This document shows, piece after piece, positions 44,499-57,960 of a stretch of 57,960 nt of DNA. Source of the stretch: an uncultured Chlorobiaceae bacterium (GTDB lineage Bacteria > Bacteroidota > Chlorobiia > Chlorobiales > Chlorobiaceae); assembly GCA_903869365.1 (NCBI GenBank), contig CAIPYV010000079.1, forward strand, positions 1 through 57,960, read 5' to 3'. A program made the position numbers and the translations under genes. Every line of letters starts with the position of its first letter. Within the stretch, counting starts at the first letter, position 1. Under the pieces are notes generated by a model, which saw nothing but the letters and a program-made list of their open reading frames with translations, was not told the DNA's origin and did not search any database.

Positions 44499-46559
44499 TC
44501 ATGTGTTGTTGTCTTTAAAATAGGTCACTTCAAAGGCTTTGCATGGGCGGAACTGCTGGAGACGGTTGTTAAAGGTGAAGGTATCGTTCATTTCATAGTG
44601 CTGAAAAATATCGAGTCCGCAATCGAGCAGGATTTTCCAGCCATTGTCAGTCTCAATGTGGCGGGTGTGCATCGTGCCGGTTTCATCAAACTCCCAGGTA
44701 AACGCTATTCCCGCTGTGTCGCAGGAGTTTTTCATTTTTTCGAAGTTTTCTTTCTGCTGTTCACCTTTGCAATCGTCTTCTGTGGTGATTAAATGAACGG
44801 CTACCTCATCCTCAATGGGTTTATATTTCAGAACCGTTTCAAGGAACTCCATGAAATTACGTACCTGATAGAAGAGCCGGATATATGGATCAGTGACAAC
44901 TATTCTGCTTGCTCCTCTCAGGTAGTGACCAAAGAGGGAATCATAAGAAACTCCACGCTGATTTTCCTGAAAAATCTGATGCTGCTCTTTGACTGTCGGG
45001 GCAGCAACAGGGGCTTGATCTCTTGACTCCTTGGGAAAATCAAGTTCAATGCTTTCAGCCTGGAGAAGCAATCCTTCTGGTTCAACGATTGTTTTCTTGT
45101 AATACTGAGGATAGGTCTCTTCTTCGAGGGTTTTAACCGTTCTTGATTGACCAGAGGCATCTGTATAGGAAAAATGCACTGTCGGGTACGTCGTATCAAG
45201 ACGCATAAGCTGATCTTTTACCCTTTTCCTGCCTTCGATTGCGAATATCAGCATTTCTTCAATTTCATCTCTTGATGCTCCTCCCTGAGGGAAAAGGATT
45301 TTCATAAGGCCAGAGAAGGTCTTATTGATACCGTCTCTATCACGCGTTGAAATATCGGGGGAAAGTGAAAAGTGCTCCTTATACCGATCTGAATAGTCGT
45401 GGTTGCGCATTGAACGAAGAATTTCGGCGAGGTAATCGACCACAAACCCATACCCATCAGAGAACATCTCACCGCGAATAATATCTATTTCCCAGCCTGG
45501 GGCATAAAAATGGATACGGTCAAGAAATGCTGAGTCATAAAATTTTTCTGGCAGTTCATCAAACAGGTTGGAGTGCTTGAGCATGTAGGGGACTGTATGC
45601 TGGGTGTTGCCAACAAAAACCATGGAAGCTTCTGCGCCAAGGGTTTCAACACCACGGGAGAAGGAGTTGTTGGCCATGTAGTTCTTCATAATATCAACCA
45701 GTGACTTGTCGACACGCTTCTGCCTGCCTGCAAACTCATCAAAAGCGACGACATCCCAATACCCAACCAGTCCGATTTTACCAGAAGAGTTACTCACAAA
45801 AAGTTTGGGCACAGTCACCTCACCACCGGAAATAAGAATACCATGAGGGGAGAATTCGGAATAGATATGGGACTTTCCTGTGCCTTTCGGGCCAAGTTCA
45901 ATAAGGTTATAATTGCTTTCACAATAAGGGATCAACCTGATAAGTTGCGTCAGCTTGCTGCGTTTGCCAAAAAGTTCAGGATTAAAACCTATGCTCTGGA
46001 TGAGCAGATCAATCCACTCGTCAGTCGTGAATTGCCTGCGGGCTTCTCCATACCCTTCGAAATCGAAATGAGAGAGCTGGATGGGTTTCAGTGCCGACAT
46101 GATCCAGGGTATCGCGTTCTTCTCTTCCTTGAATTCGTACTCGATATCAGCAATGCACCATACTCCCCCGACCAGGAGTTTTGGATGAGTCTTGATGGTA
46201 CCGGAATCTACCAGAACCTTTTTGATGCCGAGATTTGAAAACTCAGCCTCATAGGCATCGGTTTTGTCATTCAGCGCAACGCTTATCTTATCAATGACCT
46301 TATACCTGCCTTTCTCCTTGATATGTGATCGAACCAACCCGGCTTCATTGCGGTGCACATAGTGTTTTCGGAGAATCTCCTTAACCGTCTCTATGCCGGT
46401 TTGAATCGAAGCTTCATCACTTGTCGCGCAATATTGACCCAGCAGATATTCAAGAACATAAGTTGGAACAATGGCATTGCCTTTGACGGTCTTGACAAGA
46501 TCCTTTCGAACAACAAGCCCTGCAAAATGAGTGTTTATCTTTTGGTCAAGATTATTCAT
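44499..46559 (-). CDS. brxL: BREX BrxL-type AAA+ protein with C-terminal MIT_C-like domain
   Basis: The protein is ~686 residues. The N-terminal third (NTHFAGLVVRKDLVKTVKGN, LEYLLGQYCA) and the AAA+ core, LIELGPKGTGKSHIYSEFSP as Walker A, DVVAFDEFAG as Walker B and RGVETLGAEASMVFVGN, match BrxL. From ~residue 537 the sequence changes to SYDSLFGHYLRGASRIVV, then DPYIRLFYQVRNFMEFLE, HLITTED, DNGWKILLDCGLDIFQ and QQFRPCKAFEV, matching the MIT_C phospholipase D-like domain of MITD1. A Lon Ser-Lys protease domain is not seen. The open frame begins at TTG 46568; ATG 46559 is preferred. It is the last gene of the BREX operon, 17 bases after pglZ. Confidence 0.88.
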   Translation of the reverse strand: MNNLDQKINTHFAGLVVRKDLVKTVKGNAIVPTYVLEYLLGQYCATSDEASIQTGIETVKEILRKHYVHRNEAGLVRSHIKEKGRYKVIDKISVALNDKTDAYEAEFSNLGIKKVLVDSGTIKTHPKLLVGGVWCIADIEYEFKEEKNAIPWIMSALKPIQLSHFDFEGYGEARRQFTTDEWIDLLIQSIGFNPELFGKRSKLTQLIRLIPYCESNYNLIELGPKGTGKSHIYSEFSPHGILISGGEVTVPKLFVSNSSGKIGLVGYWDVVAFDEFAGRQKRVDKSLVDIMKNYMANNSFSRGVETLGAEASMVFVGNTQHTVPYMLKHSNLFDELPEKFYDSAFLDRIHFYAPGWEIDIIRGEMFSDGYGFVVDYLAEILRSMRNHDYSDRYKEHFSLSPDISTRDRDGINKTFSGLMKILFPQGGASRDEIEEMLIFAIEGRKRVKDQLMRLDTTYPTVHFSYTDASGQSRTVKTLEEETYPQYYKKTIVEPEGLLLQAESIELDFPKESRDQAPVAAPTVKEQHQIFQENQRGVSYDSLFGHYLRGASRIVVTDPYIRLFYQVRNFMEFLETVLKYKPIEDEVAVHLITTEDDCKGEQQKENFEKMKNSCDTAGIAFTWEFDETGTMHTRHIETDNGWKILLDCGLDIFQHYEMNDTFTFNNRLQQFRPCKAFEVTYFKDNNT

Positions 46560-46576
46560 GGACAACAACCGGCTGT

Positions 46577-49111
46577 TTAAAAATCAAAATCACTGGTAAA
46601 TGACCTCCGCACAGAGTAGCGGATTGACTTGTATTCGCTGAAGTGTGAGGTGCCCTGGTATTTTTCATCAAGTCTCAAAATAACCTCCTGACCATTCACC
46701 TCATCGGCTTTGCTGGTCAGTACGAATCGAACCTGCCGCTCACGATCCCGAGCATTGTCGGAGGTGACATCAAAAACAAGGGTATGGGAATCGGAAATCA
46801 GATCTCCGGCAAGGGTATACATGCCGGCAAGAAGAGTCCTTGCCTGAACTTTTTCGGTAACCGGCTGCGATTGATAAAGCACAACAGCCAACTGGCCTGA
46901 TGTGATAACAGAACTGGTTCCACGAATAATATCCACATCAACGGCAGAGATGTCACTCTGGCGCTTTTTGTTAATCCTGACAATCGGAATCACTACTTCC
47001 TGCAATGACGCGCCACCGTGCACAAAACGACTGCCAGATCCTTTGAGGCGCAGACGGTTGATCGATTTCGGAATCAGCACCTCCATCTCTCCAGACAATC
47101 CAAGCTGTAAGGAGCTAAACTTCCGCAGGCTTGAACTCTCTTTGAGTCCTTTGCCAAGCACAAATCGGCGGTCACGAAAGAGCATCTGCTCTCCATCAGC
47201 TTCATTTCCCGCAAAATCGCTCTCGTCAAGCACACGATTCTGGTAGATAAATCCATGATCAGCCGTAACCAGCAAGTTATTGGCGTTGGCTCCGGTAAGC
47301 TTTTTGACAAGCTTGACAAGATCCTGCAAGGTATCCTCAACAGCCTCGAACACCCTCTCTTCCGATTCACGCTTATCACCGGTTATATCAATGCGATTAT
47401 GGTAAACATACATCACATCATGATCGCGGATCAATGTGCGACACTCATCACCTTTGAGCGCCATAACCTCTTCAGCCTTTACGGCAGCCCCCTTCCAGGA
47501 AGCTGTCCGGTTGAGAATCCTGGAGCGATTGGCCGTGCCTTGAGAGTTAATCCCGTCGACCAGGACTGCTCCTGTATCATTATCGGCAAACGCGAGTACC
47601 CTGTTCGGGAGCAGCGCAGCCATGCCAAGCTGTGTATAGCTCGGTAGCATTGCAAGAGCAGGCTCTATAGTCGCATCAAATCGGTCTTCCTGCCGAATAA
47701 GGGTAAGTAATTCATCACCGATTTCGTAGCGCAATGCATCGGAAATAATGACACAGACCTTATTGTTCTTTACAAGAAATGGATGAATATAACGTTCGAA
47801 AACACCTCTCTGTGGCGGCACAGGAGAGGCCTCCCATGTATCAGCTTCATCCACAAAAACCTGCCACCGGTCGTTCAATTTCAGGAGGTAGTTGTTGGAG
47901 TAAAGATTTTCAATTTTATCAACCAGTTCCGCCATCAGCGAAGCCTGCCCGGACATGCTGAAATGGTAAATGAATTTGCGATAGCATTGATCGAGCCGAA
48001 ACCAGAAGCGGCTGTAGAGTTGCACACCATCAGCCATAGAACTCATCTCCAGCCTTGCCTCTTCGATTGCATGCATGAAAAGCGCGGCATACTCCACCGT
48101 CTCGTAATGGTGCTGAAACTCATTGTACCAGTGACCTTGACGGCGCTGGCGTATCCATTGTGCTATCTCATGGCTGAACACAGTCTGAGTAACAAGCGCC
48201 TTAACCAGTTCACTGATAATTTTCTTGTCAATCATCCGAAAATAATCGAGTTCCATCAGTTGACGAAAATCCAGCTTTTCCAGTTGTTGTTCCATGCGCA
48301 GGATCTCCGCACACTCTTCAGAGAGCGCCCCGAAACACCCCTCAAATTGACGGCTGTCTTTCCAACGCTTCAGAAATACCAGCGCATCACCGGAAAGCGC
48401 CCCCTTTCCACCAATTCCCATGGCAAAGCCGAACTTGAATAGCTCGATAACGAAATCCTTCATGCCAGGCTCGGATGATTCGTAGCCGTAACTCCGCTTC
48501 ATAAGCTCCCAGAAATATCCATCCAGGCGACATCGCTCAATCAGACGAAATTTATCACCTTCCTGAAATTCAAGGCCCAATTGCTTTTTTCTCGAAGCGT
48601 TACCCGCCAACTCGTCCAGCAGGTGTTCCGCCACAATATCCAGCCGAGCTTCAGAACCGGCGCAAACGCCAAGCATCTTCAATCGGATTATTCCTGGCGT
48701 GTCGTCCCCCTTGAGCAATTGTCTGAGGCTCTCAATTCGCTTGGCAGACTTGTAGAATTCAGGATGATCTTTAACCACATCCTGAAACTCATGGCCAAGC
48801 TCAAGCTCCGAGAGCCATAAACCTACCTGATCAGCGCGGAAATCACCATAGGCAAGCTCGACATCGAGCAGCCAGTTATCCAGCTTTTCAGGCTGAGCCC
48901 CTTCGCGATAGAGCAGGAACTTCTGGTCAGGTTGCACACGCAGAATGCGATACTTCACGCCAAACTCGTTGTTGGCAAGTTCAATCTTTTCAACACCCTC
49001 AAGCTGCAAACCATCGAATGCGTCTCGCAACTCCTTCTTTACGTCATTCCAGAAAACAATGCGATGACGATCGAACAGCCGACTTAGCGCCTGGGTGATG
49101 CGTTCACTCAT
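46577..49111 (-). CDS. pglZ: BREX type 1 PglZ phosphatase-fold protein (type A)
   Basis: The protein is 844 residues. The N-terminal ~400 residues are helical (ALSRLFDRHRIVFWNDVKKE at the start). The alkaline-phosphatase-like PglZ domain follows, with VCVIISDALRYEIGDELL (~452), and a metal-site block LLVTADHGFIYQNRVL (~616), ending in HGGASLQEVVIPIVRI. PglZ is essential for BREX defence and methylation. It starts 180 bp after the BrxU-like gene, and that gap holds an 11-bp inverted repeat. brxL follows directly. All expected parts appear intact. Confidence 0.93.
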   Translation of the reverse strand: MSERITQALSRLFDRHRIVFWNDVKKELRDAFDGLQLEGVEKIELANNEFGVKYRILRVQPDQKFLLYREGAQPEKLDNWLLDVELAYGDFRADQVGLWLSELELGHEFQDVVKDHPEFYKSAKRIESLRQLLKGDDTPGIIRLKMLGVCAGSEARLDIVAEHLLDELAGNASRKKQLGLEFQEGDKFRLIERCRLDGYFWELMKRSYGYESSEPGMKDFVIELFKFGFAMGIGGKGALSGDALVFLKRWKDSRQFEGCFGALSEECAEILRMEQQLEKLDFRQLMELDYFRMIDKKIISELVKALVTQTVFSHEIAQWIRQRRQGHWYNEFQHHYETVEYAALFMHAIEEARLEMSSMADGVQLYSRFWFRLDQCYRKFIYHFSMSGQASLMAELVDKIENLYSNNYLLKLNDRWQVFVDEADTWEASPVPPQRGVFERYIHPFLVKNNKVCVIISDALRYEIGDELLTLIRQEDRFDATIEPALAMLPSYTQLGMAALLPNRVLAFADNDTGAVLVDGINSQGTANRSRILNRTASWKGAAVKAEEVMALKGDECRTLIRDHDVMYVYHNRIDITGDKRESEERVFEAVEDTLQDLVKLVKKLTGANANNLLVTADHGFIYQNRVLDESDFAGNEADGEQMLFRDRRFVLGKGLKESSSLRKFSSLQLGLSGEMEVLIPKSINRLRLKGSGSRFVHGGASLQEVVIPIVRINKKRQSDISAVDVDIIRGTSSVITSGQLAVVLYQSQPVTEKVQARTLLAGMYTLAGDLISDSHTLVFDVTSDNARDRERQVRFVLTSKADEVNGQEVILRLDEKYQGTSHFSEYKSIRYSVRRSFTSDFDF

Positions 49112-49291: not shown

Positions 49292-51004
49292 CTAATCAAT
49301 CTTCCATATACCGGACGCAACAGTCGCTAACTGCTTTTGCCGAGCTTCGATTTTCTGTTCATCCCAAATGTCATAGTGCTCTGCAACCGCATTTGTTATC
49401 TGAAAAGCACTCTGCTGATAAACCAGCCGCTTGGCTGCGTAATCTCCATTACCCAACGCTCTGTTTCGATTGGTTTCAAGAGGTGTCATATTGCCAAGAC
49501 GATAAATAAGACGATCCTGTTTGGCCTCTTCCATGTAAGACCACATTTCAGATGGATGTTCCGGGAGGATGTGCTCGATATTGTACGTAGCACTTTCAAA
49601 ATCGAAATCCTGACCAGATTGCTGGCGCTCAATTTCAAAAAGGATATACCGCACCACTTTTTTGTTGCGACTATTTGTGGTACAAAGTTCCTTCTCACTG
49701 AATGCCACTTTAAACTGTATGTCATCGGGATACACCTCCCGCAATGCACTAATAATCTCCGTAAAGCGCGAATAGATGCCTCCCGATACTTTCAAAGCGA
49801 TGTCATTATACAATCGTTCCTGCTCATGTGCCTGAAAGTTACATATAACGTTATAGCGAAATGACACGACCGCCACTGCTTTCATCAAGCGAGTAAAGGC
49901 AGCTCTGTCATGCTCATAGAACCTTGCATGGCAGGCCATCAGCATAGCCAGTGGCTGCCGAACATTGAACATCAGCAACTGTTTAAGGCAAAGTTTTTCT
50001 TCACTGTTCCACGCAGCATCCTGAGGATCACGGAGAGCCGCATAAATGGCTGCTGATTGATCGAGATCTCGAAGCAAATCAAATGCAGCTTCACGGTCAC
50101 TGATTCGTTTTCGGATGGTCTTGAAGAGGTCAGACTTCCTTACCAGCTTGTTACGGCTGTTCCAAAATATCCGGAGAAATTCAGGAAAACTTTCACTTCC
50201 CAACAAACCTACAATTCGCTCCCAACGATCTTCCAGAGCCTTCAATTCCGTTTCATGTGTGTCATGAGTACTGATAATCGAAAAGAGATAATTTTTCAGC
50301 AGGTCAGTTGCTGAAAGACGAACACCTCTGGCATTGAGCGTCTCAAAGACTTTAAATGCATTCAATTCGTCTGTCACCGTAATAACCGTGAAAAACAGCT
50401 TATCGACCAACCCGTCAAGGAAAACGGTCAGCTCCTTTCCGCTTGCTTCGTTCATCCCAAAGCGGGTTTTAATGTGCTCTTTAAACCAGTTGAAAGATTT
50501 TCGAAGTTGATGTTCTGATGCGTTCAGTCCTCTTTGCGGCAGTGTTTCAAGCGTCACCAGATAGGTCTGGTAAAAGCGGTTATTATGGCGATTCAACTCC
50601 AACTTGGAGCGCGATACCAGACTTACAGGGTCAAGATAGCCGATGTAACTGCTTTGAAGCTGTTCTTTACGCTTGATGTTATTGTCGGAATCAAATCCGG
50701 CAGCAGCCATCTCCTGGAGATGCTTCAATCCAGAAAGGATCATAACACTTATTGTCGTAAGCCGCTGTTGACCATCAATGATATCAAACCGCTTGTTATC
50801 GGATGACTGCAATACCAGATAACCCATGTAGTGAGCCAATTCACCGTCCTCTTCGAACAATCCGTGGATGTCTTGCCAAAAATCATCCCACTCTTCTTCC
50901 GTCCATGAATAGTCACGTTGAAAAGGAGGAACATGGTAGCTCAAGCCGTTACCGAGCAATTGACGGAAAGTAGAATTGGTTGTATTAAAATTCATTATTG
51001 CCAT
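49292..51004 (-). CDS. brxU: DUF262-DUF1524 protein (GmrSD/BrxU-like type IV restriction)
   Basis: The protein is 570 residues. The N-terminal DUF262 (GmrS, ParB-like nucleotidase fold) has YHVPPFQRDYSWTEEEWDDF and FDIIDGQQRLTTISV (DGQQR at 77-81). The C-terminal DUF1524 (GmrD, His-Me nuclease) has YNIEHILPEHP (~474) and YRLGNMTPLETNRNRALGN. GmrSD enzymes cut DNA with modified cytosines. In the E. fergusonii pEFER island the similar BrxU also lies between pglX and pglZ. Its SD (GAGGAG) and the stop before it come from a leftover copy of the pglX 3' end. The name brxU is by position and domain, not proven function. Confidence 0.82.
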   Translation of the reverse strand: MAIMNFNTTNSTFRQLLGNGLSYHVPPFQRDYSWTEEEWDDFWQDIHGLFEEDGELAHYMGYLVLQSSDNKRFDIIDGQQRLTTISVMILSGLKHLQEMAAAGFDSDNNIKRKEQLQSSYIGYLDPVSLVSRSKLELNRHNNRFYQTYLVTLETLPQRGLNASEHQLRKSFNWFKEHIKTRFGMNEASGKELTVFLDGLVDKLFFTVITVTDELNAFKVFETLNARGVRLSATDLLKNYLFSIISTHDTHETELKALEDRWERIVGLLGSESFPEFLRIFWNSRNKLVRKSDLFKTIRKRISDREAAFDLLRDLDQSAAIYAALRDPQDAAWNSEEKLCLKQLLMFNVRQPLAMLMACHARFYEHDRAAFTRLMKAVAVVSFRYNVICNFQAHEQERLYNDIALKVSGGIYSRFTEIISALREVYPDDIQFKVAFSEKELCTTNSRNKKVVRYILFEIERQQSGQDFDFESATYNIEHILPEHPSEMWSYMEEAKQDRLIYRLGNMTPLETNRNRALGNGDYAAKRLVYQQSAFQITNAVAEHYDIWDEQKIEARQKQLATVASGIWKID

Positions 51005-51006
51005 TT

Positions 51007-51076
51007 TTCACTCCTCTTTTGCTTCAAGGCAGGGAATTTTCCGCAGAGCCGGGCCGAATTTCTGATAGTTCACTTT
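51007..51076. repeat. Orphan copy of the pglX 3' end (recombination scar)
   Basis: This 70-bp stretch between ptuB and brxU matches the 3' end of pglX at 52984-53053 without gaps, 60 of 70 bases identical. On the minus strand it would encode KVNYQKFGPALRKIPCLE plus AKEE and a stop, against KVNYQKFGPALRKIPGLD plus TKEE in pglX. In both copies GAGGAGTGA is followed by three bases and an ATG, so the scar supplies the ribosome-binding site of brxU. It begins 7 bases after the ptuB stop. Confidence 0.88.
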
Positions 51077-51083
51077 CAACGAG

Positions 51084-51707
51084 TCAGTCTCCAAAAAGAT
51101 AGCGGATAGTTGTCCAGAACTCTCCGTACATACCGCGACTATCCAGTTGAAGATATCCCGAAACAAAACGAGTCGCTTCATCCTGACTCAACGATTCATC
51201 CAAAAAGGGTTCAATAGCACTCTTTCTCAAGCTCCGGAGTTTTGGAATATCAAGACCAAGCCTGAATACTGTTTCGGTTGCAGCTCTATCAGCCGATTGA
51301 GCAGAACTGATGTATCCGTCTCCGGTAAAAGCAAACCTCTTCTCACTTCCTGAATCAAATGGAGATACCAACAATTGCTCATCAAACCAGTCATCTTTAC
51401 GATTGCCACAATGGCGCGGATCTCCTTTTGTCAATCTCTGCTGGCAGGAGCAAAGCATATTGGTAAAATCCAGCGGGTCTGTTGATTTATTCTCCTGAGG
51501 CCTGAAATGCTCAATATGAGAGTCGTTATCAGTTAACCTGCGTTCACAATAACAACAAATATGCCCTTGTTCAGTCATCAGCGCCTGTTTAACAGCGATC
51601 TTAACATCTCCACTCAGCTTGTCATAAGTGGGCGTCCACTCTTCATTCTTGAGAGCTTTCCACTTGGTAAAATCCTCTGGTTCATTCTGTTTGACGATGT
51701 ACTTCAT
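51084..51707 (-). CDS. ptuB: PtuB-type HNH endonuclease (Septu)
   Basis: This 207-residue protein of the TIGR02646/PtuB kind has ICCYCERRLTDNDSHIEHFRP with the first zinc Cys pair (51-54) and the catalytic His of the HNH (64-67), and then LDFTNMLCSCQQ and PRHCGNRKDDWF for the second metal pair. PtuB nucleases act with PtuA ATPases in Septu and in retron Eco7-type defence. No reverse transcriptase is nearby, so plain Septu is the fit. Its start overlaps the ptuA stop by 4 bases (ATGA). Confidence 0.88.
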   Translation of the reverse strand: MKYIVKQNEPEDFTKWKALKNEEWTPTYDKLSGDVKIAVKQALMTEQGHICCYCERRLTDNDSHIEHFRPQENKSTDPLDFTNMLCSCQQRLTKGDPRHCGNRKDDWFDEQLLVSPFDSGSEKRFAFTGDGYISSAQSADRAATETVFRLGLDIPKLRSLRKSAIEPFLDESLSQDEATRFVSGYLQLDSRGMYGEFWTTIRYLFGD

Positions 51708-52981
51708 TTACCGATAATCTCCTTACGCCTGATGAGAATTTCGGCTTTCATCAGTTCAGGATCTTCGCCAATTTCCTCTTTCATTACGGCAATTGACCGA
51801 CGGGCTTCTTCTATGTGGTTTTGATCAATGGAAGAATAAATATCATGAAGTTTTACACTGACTTCATCTGGTCGGGTCGTCTCAAGTCCCATCAAGTCCT
51901 CGAGAATCCTCTCTACACTCTTTCCATAAGACTCTGTTGGTTGTTCAGCAACCATGCCTGAATCGGTTTGCTTGAGAAGAAAAAGACTCTCCGGCTGCAC
52001 TTGAGTAATTACATGCGGAGAATGAGTGGAAATGATAAACTGAGCATTCGGAAACACCTCAAGAAGCTTTGGAATAATCATCCGTTGCCATTTCGGATGA
52101 AGGTGCAGGTCAATTTCATCAATCAGTATAACTCCTTCTCCCTCCAGCGGATTTTCTCGCGCAGGGTTGGCAATTGACATTCGTCGGGCAAGATCTCCAA
52201 CCAAAGCCATCAGGCACTTTTCGCCATCGGAAAGCTGGTTAACTGTCAGAGGTTTACCATTTTTTTCTACTTCCATGCGAAGTGGGTTCCGGCGAACCGT
52301 GAGGTTGGTAAAATCAGGCATAAAGAGCATCAAAGCAGCACGAACTGCTTCAAGTTGCAAATCAGGAAACTGGAATCCTTCGGGCTTTATGAGTAGTTCA
52401 GCATATTTTCTGTTTTCGTTTTCAAGATCTTCGCGCTCCCTGAACCATTCAAAAAAAGCCCGAAAATTGGCGCCACCCGTTAACGAATCACTGTAAGCTG
52501 AAAGAAGATCAAAACTGTGCCGTTCTTTTATGCGAAGAGGAATATCGAGAACTGCCCGGTTAACAGGATAATAGGCAAACAGTGGCAGATTTGTCAAGCC
52601 ATTGCTTTCCGAAATCTTTGCCTGTATTTGTTGTGCTATATAAGTTGTCGAAATCAGAATCGAAGCAACATCCCTCTTGCTATACCCTTTGCGAGTTTTT
52701 GCCAAAGTCCAGCGTAAAGGGTGGCCGTTGAAATTAAAAGTCATATCAAGGCGAGCTGACGCTTCACCATTAAAAATATCTGGATTCTGAATAGGGCGAC
52801 CTGAAGAACTTTCATACTTGATACGATTAACAAGCCATGAAAGCATTATAGCTGTAGCATCCAAAATGCTCGATTTCCCTGAGCCATTCGCCCCGAAAAA
52901 CACATTTAATCGACTATGTAAATCCAGCGGCAGCAACTTAGCTCCACGAAAACAGGTCATTACCAGTTTATCAATCTGCAT
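51704..52981 (-). CDS. ptuA: PtuA-type AAA ATPase (Septu)
   Basis: This 425-residue SMC-like ATPase has LNVFFGANGSGKSSILDAT as Walker A (30-38), LSDGEKCLMALVGDLARR as signature and GVILIDEIDLHLHPKWQ as Walker B (~282), with FIISTHSPHVITQV for the switch His. With ptuB downstream it forms a PtuAB pair. It starts 3 bases after the pglX stop using GAGGAG within the pglX end as ribosome-binding site, so it is read as part of the BREX operon. Length is at the short end for PtuA. Confidence 0.88.
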   Translation of the reverse strand: MQIDKLVMTCFRGAKLLPLDLHSRLNVFFGANGSGKSSILDATAIMLSWLVNRIKYESSSGRPIQNPDIFNGEASARLDMTFNFNGHPLRWTLAKTRKGYSKRDVASILISTTYIAQQIQAKISESNGLTNLPLFAYYPVNRAVLDIPLRIKERHSFDLLSAYSDSLTGGANFRAFFEWFREREDLENENRKYAELLIKPEGFQFPDLQLEAVRAALMLFMPDFTNLTVRRNPLRMEVEKNGKPLTVNQLSDGEKCLMALVGDLARRMSIANPARENPLEGEGVILIDEIDLHLHPKWQRMIIPKLLEVFPNAQFIISTHSPHVITQVQPESLFLLKQTDSGMVAEQPTESYGKSVERILEDLMGLETTRPDEVSVKLHDIYSSIDQNHIEEARRSIAVMKEEIGEDPELMKAEILIRRKEIIGK

Positions 52982-52983
52982 GG

Positions 52984-53053
52984 TTCACTCCTCTTTGGTA
53001 TCAAGGCCGGGAATCTTCCTGAGTGCCGGGCCGAATTTTTGATAGTTGACTTT
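52984..53053. repeat. pglX 3' end, partner of the scar at 51007-51076
   Basis: The functional 3' end of the pglX C-half, 60 of 70 bases identical to the orphan copy downstream of ptuB. The two copies bracket the ptuAB cassette as direct repeats 1,977 bp apart. Divergence of 10 bases argues that they came from two different pglX alleles rather than from a fresh duplication. Confidence 0.85.
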
Positions 53054-54754
53054 TACACCATCGTCGAGGTCTATTTCAAGCTGTTCAGTGGCAAGCGGAT
53101 AAAGGATTTCGCGTTCGTAACTGTCGAGCTCTTCGATCATTTTCCTGAGGCTCTCAATCTCTTTTAGAGCCTTGGTTTTTTCTCCCGCTGATGCGCTGGC
53201 GCTGATGCTTACCGCTTCGAGATGGTTCTTCTCTGTGGTTAGCTTTATGCGAAACTCGCGCAGGTAGTTGAGTACAACGCTCACTGTATCAGAACGGTAA
53301 CGGTGCATATAGATGAGCGCATTGAAACTGCCCTTGGGGCTGCTGAAAAGCCAGTAAATAGGGCGCTTCTTATATCGACGCACATGATCGCTGTAAAAAT
53401 CCTTCAGGAAATACTTGCGGATATCCTTACCAAGCGCAACCTCGATAAACTTCAGATTCTCCTCATAATGCTCCTCGCCAAAGGTGATGCGCAGGAACTT
53501 GCGGAACCGCTCGGAGATGTCGTCAGTGAACCAGTCTCCGTCGAGGATGGGGATGACGTTGTCAGCATCAGGAGGAAAGACGGAATCAGTTGGCAGTGGG
53601 CAGTTGGCAGTTGGCAGGTTTTGGTAGGTCCTGAGATTTTTCCAATAGTCCTCGATAGTTTCGCCTTGATTGGCAAGGATCAATCCGGGTTTATCGAGCG
53701 AGTAACGTCCAAACATGCAACCAACAGCGTAGGAGATAAACTCCTTCATGGTATCAGCCAGCAGCAGCACTTCAAGCTCATCGGCGTTTTTGCTGTTGCT
53801 GTAACGATAGTGCGGGTTGCAGGTCAGAGTAATTTCATTCAGTGGCACTTCAGGCGTGAGTTCATCCTGCAAACCATAAGCATCGATGAAAATGCGATTG
53901 TTCTCTTCTTCGAGGCGCAACATCTGTATCGTCATCTCCTGCCAATGGACCCGGAGGTCATGATAAGTAGCTTTCAGCGTTGGACAGCGATAATCAGATT
54001 GCAAAAGCGGTAAGCTGGTGAATTCCCAAGAAGTCTCGTATGAGTCCCAGTCTTCTTCGCTTAGAATTATACAACTTTTACCGTTTTCGTTTATTGTTGT
54101 ACATTCTAGTATTTTAGAAGATATTGGAGTTTTAGCAATGTCGCCGATGTTAAAATTAAGCGTTGGACATAGAAACGACAAAATTGATGCCGAAACTATT
54201 GAATTAAAAAATGAAATTAAGTTTATTAGCTTATCATTATTCTCAGCAAATGCCATTGGCCCTTTTCCCTCAAACATTGCCCGGTCGTCTGAATATCTCA
54301 TTGCAAATTTTCCAGATGAGATATCATTCCAAGTCATACCTTCTTTAAAATAAAAGGATGGATTTCGAATTACTGAGTTATCGAATTTTTTTATTTCTTC
54401 ACCATCGTTTTTCCAGTTAATAACAATTTCTTTATTGCCATTCCATTTCCGAAAATCTCCACCTTTATTCACAGGGTACCATTTGATACCATCAATACAA
54501 TCTTTCAAAGCCGCTTTTCCTAATTCTACTTCGAACCAATTTCTCAGATACTTGTCATTGTCAGCAGTCGTTATTCCTTTGCGAGGTTGAGCAATATCGT
54601 TCAATGAGCTACTTTCAATAAAGGAATTTCTTATGCGATCGCTTACCCAATACGCAATCGGACTACCGGGAATTTTCTTGAAATCGGGAGCTGAAGCTCG
54701 GAAGAAAAAGCAATCTGGCTTTTCTTTTGAAAGTATGTGCTCTTCGTTATTCAT
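52985..54754 (-). CDS. pglX: PglX C-terminal half (target-recognition part), separate gene
   Basis: This 589-residue protein begins with ~20 non-family residues and then FFFRASAPDFKKIPGSPIAYW, the PglX block that in one-piece PglX follows the methyltransferase domain. IAQPRKGITTADNDKYLRNW and later EVPLNEITLTCNPHYRYSN are also PglX-like, ending with a coiled helix pair. No SAM or NPPY motif is here. The strong AGGAGG before ATG 54754 lies inside the end of the AlbA_2 gene, which it overlaps by 4 bases. Residues ~1-235 (54,050-54,754) are AT-rich, and a heptamer array at 53587-53616 adds a Pro/Thr/Asn/Cys linker. Confidence 0.82.
   Translation of the reverse strand: MNNEEHILSKEKPDCFFFRASAPDFKKIPGSPIAYWVSDRIRNSFIESSSLNDIAQPRKGITTADNDKYLRNWFEVELGKAALKDCIDGIKWYPVNKGGDFRKWNGNKEIVINWKNDGEEIKKFDNSVIRNPSFYFKEGMTWNDISSGKFAMRYSDDRAMFEGKGPMAFAENNDKLINLISFFNSIVSASILSFLCPTLNFNIGDIAKTPISSKILECTTINENGKSCIILSEEDWDSYETSWEFTSLPLLQSDYRCPTLKATYHDLRVHWQEMTIQMLRLEEENNRIFIDAYGLQDELTPEVPLNEITLTCNPHYRYSNSKNADELEVLLLADTMKEFISYAVGCMFGRYSLDKPGLILANQGETIEDYWKNLRTYQNLPTANCPLPTDSVFPPDADNVIPILDGDWFTDDISERFRKFLRITFGEEHYEENLKFIEVALGKDIRKYFLKDFYSDHVRRYKKRPIYWLFSSPKGSFNALIYMHRYRSDTVSVVLNYLREFRIKLTTEKNHLEAVSISASASAGEKTKALKEIESLRKMIEELDSYEREILYPLATEQLEIDLDDGVKVNYQKFGPALRKIPGLDTKEE
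53587..53616. repeat. Heptanucleotide array (CAGTTGG type) inside pglX C-half
   Basis: Four 7-base units in register, CAGTTGG, CAGTGGG, CAGTTGG, CAGTTGG, then CA. On the minus strand it encodes the linker LPTANCPLPTDS. The unit differs from the AGTGCTG arrays elsewhere in the window but the 7-base design is the same. Confidence 0.8.
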
Positions 54755-56238
54755 TTGCCTCCTGATTTTTCCGTAACGGACTTTTGTTCCGAAGTTAACA
54801 AAGCCCTGCCTTTTCCGCTTAACCGGTACTTCTGCAACCGGCTTTTTGGCTTATCCGGGATGGTGTATTCAAGCAAATCTGATTCCCTTAGTCGAGGGAG
54901 TGCTTTGCGCAGGTTGCCGCTCAATTGCTTATGCCCCAACGCAGCGGCAATTTCTGCTGACGACTGCGGAGTTGCCAGACATGCTGAAAGAATCTGCAAA
55001 TCGACTTGTGCCTCGACTTGTGCCTCGACTTGCTCATTGACCTGTCCCGGCTGGGTCGATTCGGATTTGCGGGACTGTTCGCGGGAGAGTGGCAAAATGT
55101 CCGATAGGGGCACAGTGAAACGTACTCGTCCCGCCAGTTCTTCTATGGTCGGCTCAGGCAGATTGCTGGCTCTGGCTTCCCTGAAAATACCGGGGATGCC
55201 GCTCCCCCACTGTTCAATAAGATCCAGCTCACGGAACACCCGCGCGATGACCGGATTGCGGATTTGTGAAACACCTTGTTTCATCTCCTCGACAGTGATA
55301 CCCGGCAGCAGCAGCCCCGGGCTCTCAACCTCAATGCGATTGTCGTAAAAAGCGATGCGAATCGGGGTGCCACGGTGGGAGTAATCGGCATGAACCAGCG
55401 CATTAATAACCACTTCACGCAATATGTTGATTGGAATACTCCAGCGATCCTTGCGCCGAATCTCGGAAAAATCGGCACCACGCATGGCGTGTTTCTTGAG
55501 AAACAGCATGATGCTCTCAACCGCCTTGGGCAGCGGGTCGTGAATATCGATATGGTCGAAGATGTCGCCCTTGTCGTTGCCGATAAAACGGCCACACTGA
55601 ATCCATGCATCATCAAAATAGAAGCGTCGCTCTTTTCCATAAAGCAATATGCCGCCCTTGCTGGGAACCAGTCGATCCTGATCGCGTACCAAAATCTTAA
55701 GACTTTGCAGCATCCGTTCATCCGGGGCTCTATCAGCAAAGTCAGACCGAATGGCTGGCAGGTCAAGCGCTTCCGCATCAAGGTCAGGCATAGGTAATGC
55801 ATCAAAACTAATCCCCGCAACACCTCGCTGCAATTCGGCAATCAATTGGGCATCGGCTTGACGGCTGGTGGAACCAAGGCGCACATAGACACCGGCCTCC
55901 ATCCCTTCAGCTTTGAGATAATGGGGGCGCGTGCCGCTAAGAAAAACCTCAACCATCAACAGCGTCTTTCCTTCAACCGTAACCATCTCGACATTGGGAA
56001 CCAGACGGGGAGCAATGGAATCAGCTATCAAGCTGCAAAGCCTTTCCTCTTCGTCGAGAGGCGACTGAACGCCGATAATCTCCCTCTTGTCAGTTACTCC
56101 AATAATTAACCTCCCACCAGCCGAATTAGCAAACGCTACAAGAGTTTTTAAAAACGGTTTTGTCGAAGAGCTATCCCGTTTGAATTCCAGTGTTTTCCCT
56201 TCTGGTTGGGCAAGGAGGTTATTCAAGAATTCGCTCAT
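54751..56238 (-). CDS. Schlafen/AlbA_2-domain ATP-binding protein lying inside split pglX
   Basis: The protein is 495 residues. The N-terminal AlbA_2 (Schlafen-like) domain has EGKTLEFKRDSSSTKPFLKT and AFANSAGGRLIIGVTDK, then a middle domain with GGILLYGKE. The GHKL-like part follows (INILREVVINALVHADYSHR, RIEVESPGLLLPGITVEEM), then a QVEA repeat linker and a C-terminal winged helix. Proteins of this layout are annotated as transcriptional regulators or ATP-dependent helicase-like; function is mostly unknown. The start overlaps the pglX N-half stop by 1 base (TAATG) and the end overlaps the C-half start by 4 (ATGA). Two of its lines are ~57% GC against 20-48% in the flanking pglX parts. Confidence 0.82.
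   Translation of the reverse strand: MSEFLNNLLAQPEGKTLEFKRDSSSTKPFLKTLVAFANSAGGRLIIGVTDKREIIGVQSPLDEEERLCSLIADSIAPRLVPNVEMVTVEGKTLLMVEVFLSGTRPHYLKAEGMEAGVYVRLGSTSRQADAQLIAELQRGVAGISFDALPMPDLDAEALDLPAIRSDFADRAPDERMLQSLKILVRDQDRLVPSKGGILLYGKERRFYFDDAWIQCGRFIGNDKGDIFDHIDIHDPLPKAVESIMLFLKKHAMRGADFSEIRRKDRWSIPINILREVVINALVHADYSHRGTPIRIAFYDNRIEVESPGLLLPGITVEEMKQGVSQIRNPVIARVFRELDLIEQWGSGIPGIFREARASNLPEPTIEELAGRVRFTVPLSDILPLSREQSRKSESTQPGQVNEQVEAQVEAQVDLQILSACLATPQSSAEIAAALGHKQLSGNLRKALPRLRESDLLEYTIPDKPKSRLQKYRLSGKGRALLTSEQKSVTEKSGGK
55001..55031. repeat. 12-bp tandem repeat encoding QVEA
   Basis: CGACTTGTGCCT occurs at 55001 and 55013, with a partial third copy CGACTTG at 55025. On the minus strand it encodes QVNEQVEAQVEAQVDLQ, the linker before the winged helix of the AlbA_2 protein. 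Such QV-repeat linkers are common in this family and may vary in copy number. Confidence 0.75.
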
Positions 56239-57960
56239 TACTTCCCCGAATTATTTGCTGATTGGATTATTTCCAATGCTTTTGGTCCTTGAAGGGCAGC
56301 TCCTTTAAAATCTGATAATCGTACATAACCACCTTTGAAATCTGCATTATGATGGTTTTCGATTGTAAAGGTACAAATTGGCACCGTGGCGCCTTCAAAA
56401 CCTGAATATTCCAGTTGAATTAGAGATGTGATCGTTTTTTGATCAATAAGAAAACCTCTTAATCTTTCGTAAGATGAAATAAACATCCAAACAAATGGTG
56501 TCATAAATCCAAGTTGACCTTTTGGTAAGGTAAGCTCAGTATTGCGAACAATAAAAGCGGAAAACAAATCAGATTTTACGTCTGAGTAATTATCTTTCAG
56601 CCATAGCGCCAGCTTCCCATTCATCCCCTTACCACCCATATACGGTGGATTTGCAATCACAACATGGTATTTAGGACTGAGGTAATCGGCCTGCTGCAAA
56701 GCTTGCAAAACCTTCTGATGGGTTGGGCTCAGGAACAGTTGTCCTGAGACATTTTTAGACTCCAGAATATTCAGCATACCCGAAACATCATTGACGGCTG
56801 GTCGAATCAGGGAACCAAAGTTGTCGGCCTCTTCAAACTGCTTGAGGGTAGTCTGCAGCGGTGCGGTGAAAAGGTCGCGCCCGATGAAATCAATGTAGTC
56901 TTTGAGCTCGCTCTCATTGAAGTGGACATTCTCGAGCACGCAGATATTCGGCTTGACGCCTTTATTGAAAAACCGACGCTGCTTGCCACGGGCCTTCATA
57001 GTCAAAGCAAATGCAGCCAGCTCCCCTGCCCGTTCGTCAATTTCGATGCCGTAAAGGTTGTGCGTCAGTATCTTTTCTGGTATTTCAACAGGATCGTACC
57101 CTTCTTCTTCATAGATGGCGTAGAGTAAATCAAAGGTGTAGGTTAGAATATGGCCTGAACCGCAGGCCGGATCACACATTTTGATCTCTTCCGGCTTCCC
57201 GATATGCAAGAAGTCACTCTCCGCCTGCTCGGGTTTGATGTAGTAGTCCATCTGCTCAACCAGCTTCGAATTGGGGCGGTTGAGCATCCAGAGGCGACCC
57301 AGTGAGTTTTCTACGAGGTAGCGCACAATCCAGTGCGGCGTGAAAAGCTGAGTGGCTGCAGGAATATTCTCCGGAGTAATCTTCTTGTTCTTCTTTAAAT
57401 CATCAAATACCTTGTCCTTTTTCTCGGATATATAGAACTGGTAGAGCCAGCCAATAACCTCGACATCCTGGCAGACGTCCGGCGTCATTGCCTCGCGAGT
57501 ATACGCAAGAATGGAGTTGCCAGAAAGAAGGTCATCGGGCATCAACAACTCGGTATAATCAGCAATTTTTTCAAACAGGTATGGCATCGACTTGTTGAAG
57601 TCGTTGCACGCGGCCACCACTAAAAAGCGGTAGGCCTCGGACTGTGGATCGCGGCTTGGAGATGAACCGCCGAGCAAGGCAAATATCTGTTCGCGGGTCT
57701 TCTCCGCCACCATCTCTTCATCAATATGGCCCATCTTGGCCTCAGCCAGAATTTCAGGCTGGAACTGCCCTTCGGCTGGCGTTATGATGCCGATACGTGT
57801 GTAACGGTTGACATCCATAAAGCGCAAGGCACAGAAGCGGTTGAACCAGATATATGCTATCCGCTCGATTATCTGTTCTCTGCCATGACCCTGAATCTGC
57901 TTTTCAAGCTCAGCTATCGCTTTTGCCTCTTCACGACGGGCGGCACTTCCTTCCGTCAAC
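56238..57960 (-). CDS. pglX: PglX N-terminal half (adenine methyltransferase part), truncated by window edge
   Basis: The frame is open to the last base, so the N-terminus (perhaps 40-60 residues) is outside; the first codon visible is TTG, not a start. The visible 573 residues contain IAYIWFNRFCALRFMDVN typical of PglX, the SAM motif CDPACGSGHILTYTFD (~263), GIEIDERAGELAAFAL, and the catalytic VIANPPYMGGKG (NPPY 437-440). The protein ends normally at QGPKALEIIQSANNSGK, exactly where one-piece PglX would go on into target recognition. It N6-methylates adenine in host BREX sites, with the C-half presumably providing specificity. Confidence 0.9.
   Translation of the reverse strand, partial: LTEGSAARREEAKAIAELEKQIQGHGREQIIERIAYIWFNRFCALRFMDVNRYTRIGIITPAEGQFQPEILAEAKMGHIDEEMVAEKTREQIFALLGGSSPSRDPQSEAYRFLVVAACNDFNKSMPYLFEKIADYTELLMPDDLLSGNSILAYTREAMTPDVCQDVEVIGWLYQFYISEKKDKVFDDLKKNKKITPENIPAATQLFTPHWIVRYLVENSLGRLWMLNRPNSKLVEQMDYYIKPEQAESDFLHIGKPEEIKMCDPACGSGHILTYTFDLLYAIYEEEGYDPVEIPEKILTHNLYGIEIDERAGELAAFALTMKARGKQRRFFNKGVKPNICVLENVHFNESELKDYIDFIGRDLFTAPLQTTLKQFEEADNFGSLIRPAVNDVSGMLNILESKNVSGQLFLSPTHQKVLQALQQADYLSPKYHVVIANPPYMGGKGMNGKLALWLKDNYSDVKSDLFSAFIVRNTELTLPKGQLGFMTPFVWMFISSYERLRGFLIDQKTITSLIQLEYSGFEGATVPICTFTIENHHNADFKGGYVRLSDFKGAALQGPKALEIIQSANNSGK

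Follow-up and report, generated by a model that had tools for sequence, protein, structure and literature searches.

A BrxL protein from a Chlorobiaceae Type 1 BREX locus ends in a putative nuclease domain closely related to the C-terminal domain of human MITD1

We report that the BrxL protein of a Type 1 BREX locus from an uncultured Chlorobiaceae bacterium ends in an MIT_C domain of the phospholipase D (PLD) fold, and that this protein is probably the PLD-nuclease form of the Type 1 BrxL, a ring-borne effector that would cut DNA. The DNA analysed here (the window) is 57,960 nucleotides long. It is contig C79 in full, from a genome most closely related, among named ones, to Chlorobiaceae MAGs. 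The architecture of the protein, its predicted fold, its conserved motif, its BREX setting and the missing Lon match are all direct observations. BrxL proteins with an MIT_C tail are already published and are a common form, and their closeness to a human protein seems to have been little noticed.

Results

The minus strand of the window, from 57959 down to 44499, encodes the greater part of a Type 1 BREX locus. The genes are, in this order, the N-terminal half of pglX, an AlbA_2/Schlafen-type gene, the C-terminal half of pglX, PtuA/PtuB, GmrSD, a type A pglZ and brxL (Table 1). The start of the locus, missing from the window, lies on C48, a second contig from this genome, with brxA, brxB and brxC together with another AlbA_2 gene and the 5' part of pglX. 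At their ends, the two contigs share 478 bp at 94.8% identity (L193 1-478 against window 57483-57960), and they are left unjoined in the assembly. The locus is probably broken in the assembly, perhaps by strain variation. With pglZ and the split pglX in the window and the three brx genes on C48, the brxL gene is found to belong to a BREX locus. Two other features of this locus were observed. PglX is encoded as two complementary genes with the AlbA_2/Schlafen-type gene in between (52985-57959), and half-length PglX models of a similar kind exist in PADLOC. Between pglX and pglZ, the BREX locus also contains a Septu-type PtuA/PtuB pair and a GmrSD-type gene (49292-52981).

Table 1. Coordinates of BREX genes, and of the domains and motifs of BrxL, in the window
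Feature	Position	Strand	Description
pglX, N-terminal half	56238..57959	-	separate gene, cut by the contig end; NF033452 positions 50-650 of 1210
pglX, C-terminal half	52985..54754	-	separate gene; NF033452 positions 645-1209 of 1210
pglZ	46577..49111	-	directly upstream of brxL, same strand; BREX-1 PglZ type A TIGR02687, 976.9 bits
brxL	44499..46568	-	689 aa from TTG; likelier start is the ATG at 46559
BrxL_N domain	46137..46529	-	residues 14-144; Pfam E 2.2e-49
BrxL_ATPase AAA+ domain	45171..46106	-	residues 155-466; Pfam E 1.1e-128
Walker A	45870..45893	-	residues 226-233, GPKGTGKS, intact
MIT_C / PLD-fold domain	44514..44954	-	residues 539-685; Pfam E 1.3e-44; MITD1-related by sequence and predicted fold
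DPYIR block	44877-44891		in the MIT_C region
HxRx4D motif	44646..44669	-	residues 634-641, HTRHIETD; single PLD half-site, with Arg in the place of Lys
RPCK block	44538-44549		in the MIT_C region

The reading frame of brxL is intact. Its product scored 655.9 bits against TIGR02688 in a profile search, is covered over its full length by the PADLOC BrxL model PDLC02508 (1193 bits), and has both conserved BrxL domains and a complete Walker A motif, as expected of a BrxL. Its resemblance to the solved Acinetobacter BrxL (8EMC/8EMH, PMC10164562) is confined to the N-terminal and AAA+ parts: the match of the full-length protein to 8emc covers only residues 3-469 (E 3e-145), and the match to TIGR02653 stops at residue 473. 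Lon-type BrxL controls from other genomes, in contrast, match 8emc from end to end and show weak similarity to Lon proteases. A Lon protease domain in the window BrxL was therefore rejected, as none is found by sequence whereas the Lon-type controls match. No Lon structure was among the 50 fold matches listed for a model of the C-terminal domain, which does not by itself exclude one. The Acinetobacter protein carries an inactive Lon/RadA-like domain at its C-terminus (residues about 498-679), whereas the window BrxL carries MIT_C instead.

The initial annotation, made from the sequence alone, had seen no Lon-like domain in this protein, and in this it was right. It had also held that Type 1 BrxL normally ends in a Ser-Lys protease, and that the swap would replace a protease-like function. 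This part does not stand: in ordinary Type 1 BrxL, the Lon domain at the C-terminus has no Ser-Lys dyad to begin with (PMC10164562, PMC12839542), and no protease function is therefore being replaced. The solved BrxL is a DNA-dependent ATPase ring that binds double-stranded DNA, and its rings are paired, tail to tail, through the inactive C-terminal domain (PMC10164562).

The MIT_C assignment of the tail is confirmed far beyond chance. The Pfam family PF16565 matches over the whole domain, from profile position 1 to 142 of 142, with 152 bits against a cut-off of 25. In phmmer searches of PDB sequences, the domain alone matches human MITD1 over its whole length (4a5z, E 1.7e-17; 2ymb, E 4.9e-17), and the full-length protein matches MITD1 over residues 530-682. 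The sequence blocks on which the initial annotation had based its claim of an MIT_C/PLD-fold domain (DPYIR, HTRHIETD and RPCK) were all located in frame, and the claim itself is borne out by Pfam, by phmmer and by the predicted fold. The structural comparison with MITD1 that it had called for gave a clear result: a confident model of the domain (pLDDT 92.9) superposes on MITD1 over 147 residues with a Z of 22.1 and an rmsd of 1.4 Å. The fold matches ranked after MITD1 include the PLD nucleases SauUSI (Z 9.6), NgoAVII R protein (8.3), NucT (8.0), Nuc (7.8) and BfiI (7.5), values near 8 being modest, and there are also matches to lipid synthases and to PLD3/PLD4. An N-terminal MIT domain such as that of MITD1 is absent from the window protein in a Pfam search. 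Prediction of the full-length structure was poor in the AAA+ part (pLDDT <50 for residues 222-362) and cannot place the MIT_C domain on the ring. The domain is under purifying selection, with dN/dS of about 0.04-0.15 against relatives from the same family, as compared with 0.1-0.5 in the linker.

Compared with the H-x-K-x4-D motif of PLD enzymes, the window copy has the His and the Asp, and the Lys is Arg in every one of 124 distinct BrxL MIT_C domains. The His is present in 123 of the 124 and the Asp in 111, the remaining 13 having Asn, Ser or Gly at that position. The GLD that follows the motif, as well as an R and a Q around DPYIR, are as conserved as the motif in these 124 domains. Human MITD1 keeps H-x-R (HDREIRFN) and has Asn at the position of the Asp. 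In one close relative of the window BrxL, L026 (L011), Gln replaces the motif His. Residue 650 of the window BrxL is Cys, and all other 123 domains have Arg at this position.

This form of BrxL has been described by Rakesh & Krishnan (NAR 2026, PMC12839542), who found that in 1030 of 2913 Type 1 BrxL proteins the inactive Lon domain is replaced by an "HKD endoDNase" in which Lys is changed to Arg (HRD), and who proposed that the HRD variant is an active endoDNase. They credit a 2025 paper with an earlier report. The MIT_C domain of the window fits their "HKD endoDNase", as judged from its position, its fold and its motif. The two have in common the architecture, the replacement of the Lon-like domain, the HRD motif and the BREX type, and we found no difference between them. 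The main text of PMC12839542 mentions neither MIT_C nor MITD1 nor ESCRT. Some such proteins are named "MIT C-terminal domain-containing protein" at NCBI. The suspicion in the initial annotation that MIT_C may already be on record in bacteria thus agrees with Pfam, the NCBI names, the full-length PADLOC model and PMC12839542. Among the papers searched, a set that lacks Hadders 2012, Lee 2012 and the Menshen paper, only one names both MITD1 and BREX, and it is irrelevant.

The domain is widespread: at least 577 stretches of GTDB genomes, among 595 listed candidates, encode a relative. Among 296 sampled genomes of the window's phylum, 18 have an MIT_C over the cut-off, on BrxL in 15 of these 18, and 7 of 398 sampled genomes of a second phylum have one. 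The BrxL ATPase exceeded its cut-off in 26 and 17 genomes of the same two samples, respectively. There was no match in the phage collection searched. Weak matches under the Pfam cut-off were discarded; L019-L021, for example, proved to be ordinary transporters and a methyltransferase-like protein.

In a tree of the BrxL core, the MIT_C proteins fall into a main group that includes the window protein, a small "MITD1-like" group (L126/L002, L134, L140, L144, L180 and L183) and the pair L013/L158, which joins short, Type-4-like BrxL proteins. This pair stands out, as the Type 4 BrxL proteins in the literature are described as lacking a C-terminal extension (PMC12839542). A single origin of MIT_C on all BrxL proteins, the Type-4-like ones included, was rejected (p-AU 4e-58, with long branches). 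When only the two Type 1 groups were considered and further Lon-type rows were added, one clade was not rejected (p-AU 0.335). The sequences support at least two acquisitions of MIT_C by BrxL lineages, and three are not backed. The combination of a Type-4-like core and an MIT_C tail is seen at L187 10040-12070 and L188 8372-10393; the loci have only distant PglZ matches, and L187 also encodes DUF4007, an N6-methylase and AIPR. On a Hymenobacter plasmid (L141 1391-3432), brxL is broken into several frames, and its MIT_C is annotated as a separate protein.

Human MITD1 shares 43-49% identity with the MITD1-like BrxL domains, several of which are only 34-36% identical to the domain of the window, that is, less than they are to MITD1. 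In a domain tree rebuilt without the very long branches of the first tree (L018, L143, L159 and L142), MITD1 groups with eight MITD1-like BrxL domains at 100/100 and is nested inside this same group at 91/83. This tree contains one eukaryotic sequence, on a long branch, and is unrooted, so the direction of transfer is not shown by it.

MIT_C is also found on proteins other than BrxL. On a Thiodictyon plasmid it forms the C-terminus of a dynamin-like GTPase (L143 1631-4474), and on a Paenarthrobacter plasmid it is fused to an IF2_N domain (L142 3431-4477). A 2023-aa DEAD/MZB helicase has it at the C-terminus (L184 1163-7231). A protein from the window's own family has MIT_C followed by 17 Sel1 repeats and adjoins an Mrr-type endonuclease gene (L185 4613-7807). 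A standalone MIT_C protein next to an AAA_15 ATPase (L186 4780-5703) has the motif HDRQVLTD...GSG and with it the classic HxRx4Dx6GS spacing. This range of partners suggests that MIT_C is a mobile effector domain used by defence genes.

Discussion

We favour a nuclease function for the MIT_C tail as likely, because the residue at the PLD nucleophile position and its partner are near-invariant and a DNA-binding ring lies upstream. The PLD nucleases among the fold matches, the BREX setting and the presence of MIT_C in other defence-like proteins, namely the DEAD/MZB helicase and the standalone protein beside an AAA_15 ATPase, also speak for it. Nuc, BfiI and other PLD nucleases with a single motif bring two half-sites together. 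In the mechanism we propose, an ATP-dependent ring like that of the solved BrxL would form on DNA from the N-terminal and AAA+ parts, and the single-motif PLD domain with its H-x-R-x4-D would sit where other BrxL proteins carry the inactive Lon-like domain that joins two rings. By analogy with Nuc and BfiI, the MIT_C domains may pair their half-sites within or between rings, and two half-sites could meet at the joint between rings. The paired domains would cut DNA that is held by the ring or pulled through it, after the BREX complex has judged the DNA to be foreign, and cleavage would be coupled to ATP. The window domain resembles Nuc, NucT, BfiI, the NgoAVII R protein and the nuclease domain of SauUSI in its predicted PLD fold (Z 7.5-9.6) and in having one H-x-[K/R]-x4-D motif. 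It differs from them in having Arg for Lys, in its low sequence identity (7-14%) and in being borne on an AAA+ BREX ring.

Activity cannot be assumed, because Lys is replaced by Arg, the Asp drifts and one relative has Gln for His. PLD enzymes do not usually have Arg where the catalytic Lys stands, and this, together with the changes of the Asp, the Gln in L026, the Cys of the window protein and the reported membrane binding of MITD1, the closest solved structure, weighs against a nuclease. The same three motif changes would suit a domain that is catalytically silent and joins rings or binds DNA in place of the Lon-like domain, which is itself inactive and ring-joining (PMC10164562). We regard this as unlikely, given the near-invariant His and Arg and the repeated recruitment of the domain to other defence-like proteins.

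Dynamin-like GTPases are a family of membrane-acting proteins, and the fusion of one to a bacterial MIT_C (L143) keeps alive a reading in which the tail binds membrane lipids and anchors the BREX ring where phage DNA enters. The very close fold and sequence of MITD1 also speak for it, as the PLD-like domain of MITD1 has been reported to bind membranes and is needed for abscission (PMC6015221). Yet lipid binding alone is not expected to need the almost invariant His and Arg of the BrxL domains, and elsewhere MIT_C is partnered with a helicase and with genes associated with nucleases, so that we hold membrane anchoring to be improbable, and somewhat more so than a silent domain. Of the two options named by the initial annotation, nucleic acid or membrane, nucleic acid is thus the better supported, because the catalytic His of PLD enzymes and its Arg partner are almost invariant. 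A target other than DNA, such as RNA, nucleotides or phospholipids, appears very improbable: PLD-fold enzymes are diverse and the fold matches include lipid synthases and PLD3/PLD4, but the BrxL ring binds double-stranded DNA (PMC10164562), and DNA is thus what lies nearest to the domain.

The kinship with human MITD1 raises a separate question, that of where the human domain came from. The C-terminal domain of MITD1 (4A5Z/2YMB) belongs to the same family by sequence (E 1.7e-17), shares the predicted fold and keeps H-x-R. It differs from the window protein in being attached to an MIT domain, in working with ESCRT-III, in having Asn for the motif Asp and in being a reported membrane binder. Because MIT_C is broad in bacteria, its distribution favours a bacterial source. 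We tentatively suggest, as a possibility short of an even chance, that the PLD-like domain of MITD1 descends from a phage-defence BrxL effector, a nuclease-type domain of BREX that would have been taken into the ESCRT-III system and become a membrane binder there.

In many BREX systems the BrxL ring itself bears a likely nuclease, a point that matters for the question of how phage is stopped by BREX. What is new as a lead is evolutionary, and the close kinship with MITD1 is the part worth following: among the sequences searched, the closest relatives of a domain of a human ESCRT-III cofactor are found on bacterial phage-defence proteins, and the ancestral activity of this domain thereby becomes testable.
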